Below are positions 2,841 to 5,001 of a stretch of DNA of 53,555 nt, one piece after another (within the stretch, counting starts at the first letter, position 1; each line of letters opens with the position of its first letter). A program made the position numbers and the translations under genes. The DNA lies in the IMG/VR virus record IMGVR_UViG_3300045051_000356, positions 1 through 53,555 of that record; one strand, 5' to 3'. Under the pieces are notes generated by a model. The model worked only from the letters and a program-made list of their open reading frames with translations, did no database searches and was not told the origin of the DNA. Source of the stretch: a virus.

Positions 2841-3260
2841 CTACCTGTGCGAGAACTCGACGTTGACCCGGTAGTTTCCTTCGATGGCCTTGGCCATCCC
2901 TTCGGCCATAGACGAGATCAACGTCTGCACCAGCGGCGACTTGCTCTTGCGCATCTCCGCGTCGATCGCCGCCTTGATCTTGTCGGTGTTCGTCGCGATG
3001 TGCGCCTGAATGGCGGCCTTGATGGCTGTCTTCGTGGCGTCTTCTACTGCCCACGTGAGCCACGACACCTTGTTGTATCCATCGTAGCTCTGGTGCTTCC
3101 CTTCGTTGTCCACCTTCTGATTCATGATCTGCTCAACAACGCGCATGATCAGGTGGTCCGTCTTCCCGAGTGCCTCGATTACAGCCGCGTTCACCTTCGC
3201 TTCGATCGCGGGCTTAATCAGGTCCATCGGGAGTTGCATCGTCGCTGTCTCTGTTGCCAT
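2841..3260 (-). CDS. Unknown helical protein (139 aa)
   Basis: The ATG at 3258-3260 has an AAAGGA site 10 nt upstream. The protein is rich in alanine and lysine helices (LIKPAIEAKVNAAVIEALGK; TKTAIKAAIQAHIATNTDKI) and ends in a short beta stretch. It may be a coiled-coil or DNA-associated protein, but no motif shows it. It lies immediately downstream of the tRNA-like element at 3298-3341. Confidence 0.6.
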   Translation of the reverse strand: MATETATMQLPMDLIKPAIEAKVNAAVIEALGKTDHLIMRVVEQIMNQKVDNEGKHQSYDGYNKVSWLTWAVEDATKTAIKAAIQAHIATNTDKIKAAIDAEMRKSKSPLVQTLISSMAEGMAKAIEGNYRVNVEFSHR

Positions 3261-3297
3261 TTTCAGAAGTCCTTTCGTTGGGGATTACTTCGACTCG

Positions 3298-3341
3298 CGG
3301 GCAGCCAGGGAATCGAACCCTGCCGAGCTTCCTCGCTGCCC
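3298..3341 (-). ncRNA. 44-nt tRNA-like minihelix (acceptor stem plus T-arm, no D or anticodon arm)
   Basis: Read on the minus strand, a 7-bp acceptor-like stem (GGGCAGC/GCTGCCC, no mismatch) encloses a 12-nt linker (GAGGAAGCTCGG) and a perfect T-arm (CAGGG, loop TTCGATT, CCCTG), with a discriminator G at 3298. The order and lengths are those of the top half of a tRNA, but the D and anticodon arms are replaced by the linker, which can itself form a 3-bp hairpin (GAG-GAAG-CTC). CCA is not encoded. It lies between the RNA ligase gene and the gene at 2841. It could be a deletion remnant of a tRNA, or a processed tRNA mimic or decoy. Confidence 0.6.
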
Positions 3342-3343
3342 AG

Positions 3344-3363
3344 ACGCCGCCAGTAAGCGGCGT
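3344..3363 (-). other. Perfect 7-bp hairpin just upstream of the tRNA-like element
   Basis: On the minus strand ACGCCGC and GCGGCGT pair around the 6-nt loop TTACTG. It begins 6 nt after the tandem TAG-TAA stops of the RNA ligase gene and ends 2 nt before the minihelix. There is no T-run, so a simple intrinsic terminator is unlikely; RNA protection or processing is possible. Confidence 0.6.
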
Positions 3364-3369
3364 GGATTA

Positions 3370-4338
3370 CTACGCCGCCTTGCGCAACATGTACCCTTCA
3401 CCAATCATCTTGAAAATCACGCGCCCGATATGGTGATGCCACCGCTCTTGCACGGGCCGCACAACGTAGCCTTCGCGAACATGGTCGGCGCCCATCGTCG
3501 TCTTGCCCTCGCAATACGCTGTCATCGCATCGAAGCCCAGCCACGGTCCGCGATACAACTCGGGCACGGTCTCCAAGTCCAGGCCACGCGCAACGGCCTT
3601 GAACGCGTCATAATCGAGATATCGCCCGGTCCGCGTGTCGAGCGCATCGAACAGGATTAGCTTCGCTCCGGTTGGGTGGCCGTACTTGAGATCCTGAACC
3701 TGGCCATAGACCTCACCGTAAACGGCAATGCCGGGAACCTTCGCGAGCCGTTCCTCTAGGCCGATTTCGATCGCGACTTTCCACCACATGTTGCGCTCGT
3801 CGAACTTCTTGATCTGGTGATGCGAGCCAACCCACAGGCGACCGTCCTGGTAGACGAATCGCGCGTTCGCGCCGTGGATCTTCTCGGTCAAGACGACCTC
3901 TTCGCCGTCTTGGAGAACGTCGCGACGACGGCGCAGACCTTCGATGTCCGTAAACACAGGTAGGAATCCGGGATCAGCTTCGTTCTCCGTGTTTGTCACG
4001 AGCGACGGCATGGCCGGTTCCCACTTCTCGATACCAAGCTCAGCCTGGACGTTCTGCCCCTCGACCCATGACGGGTCGGCATTGGTGAGCATGCCCATCG
4101 AGAAAATCCCGCGTAGCTTCTTGGCCTTGATTCGACGGTGGCCTTCCAGAAATGCCCATTCGGGCCGGTCGGGCACAATAGAGTCAATCGGGACGTGGAC
4201 GGCTAATCCGCCTTCTTCGTATTCGCCAGTGCGGAAAATGACCGGGTACCCGTTGACCTCGGCAATCGAAAGCGTATCGGCATTGGGGTGCTTCTGGACG
4301 TTGCGGACGCGTGTGACCTCGACGTGGAATTCGCTCAT
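3370..4338 (-). CDS. ATP-dependent RNA ligase, Rnl5/DraRnl-like
   Basis: This 322-residue protein seals RNA ends or nicks through a ligase-AMP intermediate. The nucleotidyltransferase motifs are all visible: motif I EKIHGAN with the adenylated lysine at about K153, motif III VYGEVYG near 207, motif IV EGYVVRP near 289, and motif V RVIFKMIGEGYM near 306. The N-terminal ~100 residues carry HPNADTLSIAEV, which fits the N-terminal domain of the DRB0094 type and also resembles tRNA-binding domains. The ATG at 4336-4338 has an ideal AAGGAGGT site, so the start is firm. It sits 17 nt downstream of a tRNA-Lys gene and upstream of a tRNA-like element, which points to tRNA repair; that role is inference. 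Confidence 0.9.
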   Translation of the reverse strand: MSEFHVEVTRVRNVQKHPNADTLSIAEVNGYPVIFRTGEYEEGGLAVHVPIDSIVPDRPEWAFLEGHRRIKAKKLRGIFSMGMLTNADPSWVEGQNVQAELGIEKWEPAMPSLVTNTENEADPGFLPVFTDIEGLRRRRDVLQDGEEVVLTEKIHGANARFVYQDGRLWVGSHHQIKKFDERNMWWKVAIEIGLEERLAKVPGIAVYGEVYGQVQDLKYGHPTGAKLILFDALDTRTGRYLDYDAFKAVARGLDLETVPELYRGPWLGFDAMTAYCEGKTTMGADHVREGYVVRPVQERWHHHIGRVIFKMIGEGYMLRKAA

Positions 4339-4355
4339 TTTCTCTAACCTCCTTG

Positions 4356-4428
4356 TGGGTGAACCGAGAATCGAACTCGGAACCGGCGAGTTAAAGGCCC
4401 GCTGCTCTGCCAATTGAGCTATTCACCC
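4356..4428 (-). tRNA. tRNA-Lys (UUU), with C instead of U at position 33
   Basis: A full cloverleaf can be drawn: acceptor GGGTGAA/TTCACCC, D-stem GCTC/GAGC, anticodon stem GCGGG/CTCGC (one G-T pair), loop CCTTTAA, T-arm CCGAG-TTCGATT-CTCGG, discriminator A. The anticodon is TTT (34-36). Position 33, nearly always U, is C here. CCA is not encoded. The gene is 73 nt and lies just before the RNA ligase gene in the same direction. Confidence 0.9.
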
Positions 4429-4824: not shown

Positions 4825-4929
4825 GTGGTTGTCCTTTCGTGTGGATTGCGAAAAGTCGCCAACGCCGCCTTGGTTTCTGTTCCAGACCTGGATGGATTCG
4901 GGAGAGAAATGGTTCGGCGGCATTGGCAG

Positions 4930-5001
4930 TCGGGGCGGCGGGAGTCGAACCCGCAACATGCGGCTTATAAAGCCGGTGCTCTACCATTGCGCTACGCCCC
5001 G
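4930..5001 (-). tRNA. tRNA-Ile (UAU)
   Basis: The cloverleaf reads acceptor CGGGGCG/CGCCCCG, D-stem GCGC/GAGC with one mismatch, anticodon stem CCGGC/GCCGC with a C-C mismatch at 27-43, loop TTTATAA, T-arm GCGGG-TTCGACT-CCCGC, discriminator A. The anticodon TAT would read AUA directly. Most bacteria instead use a lysidine-modified CAU tRNA for this codon, so the gene is unusual. Length is 72 nt and CCA is not encoded. Confidence 0.85.

Follow-up and report, generated by a model that had tools for sequence, protein, structure and literature searches.

The locus and its minihelix

The window, which is the whole stretch of 53,555 nucleotides analysed here (IMG/VR record IMGVR_UViG_3300045051_000356), is a contig of a temperate myovirus carrying terminase, tail sheath, baseplate and integrase genes. 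One part of its minus strand holds, in order of transcription, a tRNA-Ile (TAT, 4929..5001), a gene of 107 aa, a tRNA-Lys (TTT, 4355..4428), an RNA ligase gene (3370..4338, with domain matches to PF09414 and the PHA02142 OB fold), a hairpin, a tRNA-like minihelix and an orphan gene of 139 aa (2841..3260), for which no known family was matched and no viral relative was found. The two tRNAs are the only ones called by ARAGORN in the window. The minihelix begins 28 nt past the stop codon of the RNA ligase gene, and its acceptor end lies 38 nt ahead of the ATG of the 139-aa gene, with a leader (3261..3296) that contains a likely ribosome-binding site, AAAGGA, at 3275-3270. Since the tRNA-Lys ends 16 nt before the RNA ligase start and the minihelix likewise sits between genes, the tRNAs and the minihelix fill similar intergenic slots.

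Read along the minus strand from 3341 to 3297, the element is GGGCAGC GAGGAAGCTCGG CAGGG TTCGATT CCCTG GCTGCCC G C. The minihelix proper, delimited by sequence, by fold and by a full-length covariance model match (model R2, see below), is 43 nt long (3299..3341). Its acceptor stem of 7 bp (3341-3335 with 3305-3299) is joined by the 12-nt linker GAGGAAGCTCGG (3334-3323) to a T arm of 5 bp (3322-3318 with 3310-3306), which closes on the T loop TTCGATT (3317-3311). A sequence-only reading had proposed a 44-nt acceptor/T-arm minihelix with both stems intact, in which a 12-nt linker takes the place of the D and anticodon arms. Both statements are borne out, with Watson-Crick pairing at 7/7 acceptor and 5/5 T-arm positions; that reading did not give the strand, which is the minus strand, the same as that of the surrounding genes. 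The discriminator G73 and C74 (3297..3298) are followed by G75 and not by CA, so that no CCA is encoded. Neither ARAGORN nor the Rfam tRNA model (RF00005) calls the element a tRNA.

The minimum-energy fold, at -24.7 kcal/mol (z -3.0), is matched by none of 200 shuffled sequences. It retains both stems and adds a 3-bp GAG/CTC mini-arm within the linker, and no better fold that would disrupt the minihelix was found. The structure is the sole one of its kind in the 53.5 kb, as compared with a mean of 0.0 in 20 shuffles.

Two nucleotides upstream lies the hairpin ACGCCGCT TACT GGCGGCGT (3344..3363, minus strand), which is real, as had been claimed, and has 8 bp, the last of them of the G-U/U-G type in the predicted fold. 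It is not followed by a U run, and terminator prediction gave no call on the minus strand. The suggestion that it stacks beside the minihelix finds no support as a feature of the class described below, where the usual hairpin lies downstream. Direct repeats of 11 nt with one mismatch, GGATTACTTCG and GGATTACTACG (3282-3292 and 3364-3374, 82 nt apart), enclose hairpin and minihelix as if the two were an inserted or duplicated cassette. In addition, the sequence ACGCCGCC, at 3344-3351 within the hairpin, recurs at 3372-3379 at the end of the RNA ligase gene, which makes an alternative hairpin involving that gene end possible.

A class of intergenic minihelices in phages

Viral contigs were scanned with a degenerate pattern, followed by filters on pairing and against tRNAs. 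Many of the initial matches came from the anticodon arms of normal tRNAs and were removed by the ARAGORN and pairing filters. What remained included many short minihelices, often located 5' of ribosome-binding sites and start codons. Seven lie between genes in Mycobacterium phage Konstantine, eleven are found in Send513 and seven in Streptomyces phage Lannister; shuffled sequence from the same three phages yields zero. All 25 of these copies are on the coding strand, and 22 occupy a clean intergenic position, with median distances of 9 nt from the preceding stop and 44 nt to the following start. Two of the other three run into annotated genes with possibly misplaced starts, and the third sits 172 nt ahead of the next annotated start. 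The minihelices are unannotated in the records of all three phages, and Rfam contains no corresponding family.

We define the class as an acceptor stem of 5-7 bp on a T arm of 5-6 bp with a TTCRANY loop and a linker of ~9-17 nt, placed on the same strand as, and between, two genes, 27-58 nt before a start codon, with R73-C74 in place of an encoded CCA and, as a rule, a stable hairpin ahead of the start. Some members form near-tandem arrays (L017 880-1541 and L038 9894-11360), often spaced by ~110-120 nt, which leaves little space for genes between them. Send513, a mycobacteriophage with a minihelix array, also carries a GOLLD RNA (RF02032, 180 bits; L126 29385-29845).

In cellular genomes, a tight version of the pattern returned at least 118 stretches, nearly all of them tRNA genes, and what survived filtering consisted mostly of tRNA genes that ARAGORN had not called, some of them archaeal. 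The same pattern returned 22 stretches from viral contigs, about half of which are real. Among 101 Streptomycetaceae genomes, an exact motif search gave four matches, none of them paired, and a scan of 61 Streptomycetaceae genomes with model R1 (see below), in which ~1% of candidates were scored, gave no matches. The minihelices are thus essentially restricted to phages. One clear cellular element was found, in the Glycomyces tenuis genome (L391 5818-5857), where it directly follows an FtsK/TraB-like gene in the vicinity of genes resembling those for plasmid transfer; integrative elements may carry members of the class as well.

Covariation and additional base pairs

In 22 ungapped copies every cell of the alignment is paired, and double changes occur at 9 of the 10 pairs. 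Their covariation score is 0.695; shuffles give 0.12 and slid alignments no more than 0.14. These copies had been picked by pairing, and candidates were therefore re-selected on linker and T-loop sequence alone, which returned 320 matches in 2.28 Mb, 233 of them fully paired and the others mostly background. Copies selected in this way, too, show compensatory change at nearly all pairs. From copies chosen in this manner and then confirmed to pair, a set of 154 was assembled. R73-C74 is ~99% conserved in the class, and CCA is rare (4/154). A ribosome-binding site and start codon follow 130 of the 154 copies, as opposed to 46 in shuffles, and the class hairpin between minihelix and start averages -10.2 kcal/mol against -6.8 when shuffled.

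Mutual information among paired copies revealed three further pairs that lie outside any selection criterion. Linker positions 2 and 8 make a D arm of a single pair around YGGCA, T-loop position 7 pairs with linker position 9, and the nucleotide that follows the T stem pairs with linker position 12, lengthening that stem to 6 bp. All three are still among the strongest in 18 sequences less than 80% identical. The linker/T-loop contact resembles the elbow of tRNA, and the GG of the linker would plausibly stand for G18-G19. Alignments that mixed 5-bp and 6-bp acceptors, which are out of register, were excluded from the models.

Compensatory change is also seen among orthologs. Cluster A mycobacteriophages, whose genomes measure 49-54 kb, in many cases carry a single element just ahead of the first gene of the leftward right-end operon. 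Starting from the element of Gail (L107), 82 records were gathered by similarity of the surrounding region, 13 of which were read. Their acceptors vary and are complementary throughout: GGGCTGG/TCAGCCC, GGGATGG/CCATCCC, GGGCAGG/TCTGCCC, GGTCCGT/ACGGACC, GTGCTGG/CCAGCAC, GGACTGG/CCAGTCC, GGATGG/CCATCC and GGGCAG/CTGCCC. Every element read terminates in R73-C74. Because a central arm is predicted in Lilbunny, BabyBack and Alma, and Gail, Phaded and Pharaoh leave no space for one, the acceptor and T arm are the retained parts and the middle the variable one. Just 5' of the minihelix, these mycobacteriophages (L378-L390) conserve another hairpin that resembles a T arm (CTGAGG TTTGATT CCTCAG or a variant), perhaps as a second tRNA-like unit in tandem.

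Judged by its covariation, the class is close to certain to be a real, selected RNA structure. The earlier argument that intact stems imply function is supported by the recurrence of the architecture as arrays in many phages and by this extensive compensatory change.

Relation of the window copy to the class

Model R2, built from six sequences with the window copy excluded, matches the window copy from end to end, with a score of 36.6 bits (E 9.9e-7). In a tRNA-rich control (L022, 38 tRNAs), R2 matches outside putative minihelices reach ~24.6 bits. The window copy also has the stems (7 + 5 bp) and linker (12 nt) of the class, its position 28 nt past a stop and 38 nt before an ATG (class median 44) and its terminal R73-C74 without CCA (G73 C74 G75). 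It does not have the D and anticodon arms of a tRNA (RF00005). There is no stable hairpin between the minihelix and the start codon, and the strong hairpin lies upstream instead; a weak GAAGT/ACTTC pairing is possible 3' of the minihelix and is missing from the predicted fold. Model R1, which describes the main subclass (5-bp acceptor, GGCARRC linker, and the linker 2-8 and linker 9/T-loop pairs), gives no full-length match, aligning with the T arm only at 17.9 bits.

Relatives of the window copy were sought by several routes. A search for exact relatives of its acceptor gave none, and no orthologs were reached through the downstream 139-aa gene. The RNA ligase led to four loci, next to which there are neither tRNAs nor a convincing minihelix, and a search via the terminase yielded short contigs. 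The expectation that related phages would show covariance of the stems thus holds for the class and not for the window copy, for which no direct ortholog was found. A perfect minihelix of 7 + 5 bp at L031 4046-4092, in a 150-kb contig, is followed by an encoded ACCA and is an exception to the CCA-less rule. On the present sequence evidence, the most fitting description of the window copy is a divergent class member present in a single copy; this assignment is less certain than the class itself.

A proposed role in transcript processing

Classically, RNase P needs no more of a substrate than an acceptor stem plus a T arm, a region that RNase Z reads as well. The ~99% conservation of R73-C74 matches what RNase P recognition would lead one to expect, and the CCA that blocks RNase Z is rare. 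We propose, with a probability of about 0.5, that the window element is a form of intercistronic punctuation, a processing signal for RNase P (and perhaps RNase Z) comparable to mascRNA and to the tRNA punctuation of mitochondria. A structured RNA would be transcribed from the minus strand between the RNA ligase gene and the 139-aa gene, its minihelix mimicking the top half of a tRNA by means of a 12-bp coaxial acceptor/T-arm stack and a short linker, whose GG plausibly takes the role of G18-G19 at the elbow. Host RNase P would recognise the stack and cleave at G1, and a second cut, just past the discriminator, may be made by RNase Z or some other 3' activity. The polycistronic message would thereby be split and the downstream gene would gain a defined 5' end, the window copy presumably acting as the array copies do. 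Cleavage-based punctuation is preferred because of the intergenic placement, R73-C74, the tRNA-bearing slots in the operon and the resemblance to mascRNA. Among the functions listed in the sequence-only reading, an RNase P/Z substrate or a transcript-processing signal is consistent with the placement and with R73-C74, whereas a nuclease decoy fits poorly with copies that keep fixed distances between genes.

Several observations count against this proposal. The stack of the main subclass has 11 bp and not 12, and the extra linker/T-loop pairs, unneeded for RNase P, may hint at a different partner. The window copy, for its part, is single, lacks a downstream hairpin, is not matched in full by R1 and has no ortholog that we could find. 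The 11-bp stack and the tertiary pairs leave room for a protein-bound leader that is never cut, in which the minihelix, with its hairpin, would protect the 5' end of the message or recruit a tRNA-binding host factor or phage regulator that controls the stability or translation of the downstream gene. The steady position ~40 nt before start codons, the stable downstream hairpin (-10.2 versus -6.8 kcal/mol) and pairs in excess of what RNase P needs all speak for it. However, the copies also lie ~9 nt past the previous stop, which marks a boundary between two genes and not a leader alone, and R73-C74 is nearly invariant despite being outside the helix; we regard an uncut leader as rather unlikely, if worth serious consideration.

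Less probable still, and improbable in our estimation, is an origin of the window copy by decay of a tRNA, an internal deletion having removed the D and anticodon arms, with no more than a superficial resemblance to the class. The two real tRNAs of the same operon would suit such an origin, as would a single copy that R1 does not match and that has no identified ortholog, but twelve perfect pairs, the same stop and start spacing as the class and a full-length R2 match well above true tRNAs argue otherwise, and the class shows that such structures are kept by selection elsewhere. Acceptor/T-arm minihelices are minimal substrates of several tRNA enzymes, and an RNA ligase gene adjoins the window minihelix, so that one could imagine a free small RNA that keeps tRNA nucleotidyltransferase, nucleases or the phage ligase occupied as their decoy or substrate. 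This is very unlikely, since a decoy needs no constant intergenic distances and the arrays of Konstantine, Send513 and Lannister have no adjoining annotated RNA ligase in the stretches read. Finally, a DNA-level site for recombination, attachment or repressor binding that folds by chance can be given hardly any weight: the 11-nt repeats flank the window copy and its hairpin, and repeated copies could promote gene shuffling, but the paired positions covary in a way that double-stranded DNA sites do not need, the copies are strictly oriented with transcription and strictly spaced from ribosome-binding sites, and the integrase gene is 15 kb away.

Known systems and significance

The nearest Rfam match of the window element is mascRNA/MEN-beta (RF01684; E 0.0012, 26.9 bits, below the gathering threshold of 42.5). 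Like the window element, mascRNA is tRNA-like, with an acceptor, a reduced D arm and a T arm; RNase P and RNase Z release it from a long transcript. In contrast, mascRNA is longer and belongs to the 3' ends of eukaryotic lncRNAs, and there is no sign of common descent. Mitochondrial tRNA punctuation likewise places tRNA shapes between genes, as the tRNAs and minihelix of the window are placed in similar slots, but the phage unit is a minihelix unable to decode, and the arrays add a downstream hairpin. The C4 RNA of phages P1 and P7 and the CI RNA of P4 are non-tRNA phage RNAs processed by host RNase P; these are single antisense or immunity RNAs, unlike a repeated intergenic module. With tRNA itself (RF00005) the window element shares the acceptor stem, the T arm with its TTCRANY loop and the discriminator, and differs in having neither D stem nor anticodon arm.

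No published description of the class was found in the full-text literature, a body of text that excludes most subscription papers, and an earlier mention as 'intergenic repeats' may exist. The repeats of cluster M phages (Bongo, Rey), considered as such an earlier description, were set aside, as the stretches read hold no such minihelix. Signals of tRNA-like form for processing are already known; the anticodon-less, phage-borne, gene-by-gene version with tertiary pairs of its own appears to be new.

The class is a covariation-supported RNA family missing from Rfam. It occurs in well-studied phages, namely Konstantine, Send513, Lannister and the cluster A mycobacteriophages, and explains unannotated intergenic gaps in their records. 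Studies of recognition by RNase P and RNase Z could also draw on its members as a natural series of minimal tRNA elbows. The broader reading, to which we give slightly less than even odds, is that anticodon-less tRNA mimics, an RNA family with a linker/T-loop contact of its own, punctuate the operons of many phages, chiefly actinophages but also unrelated viruses like the temperate myovirus of the window, and that the essential tRNA-maturation enzymes of the host would cut messages gene by gene at these mimics. The minihelices would then be a compact and testable example of how viruses put the tRNA-maturation machinery to use in processing mRNA.
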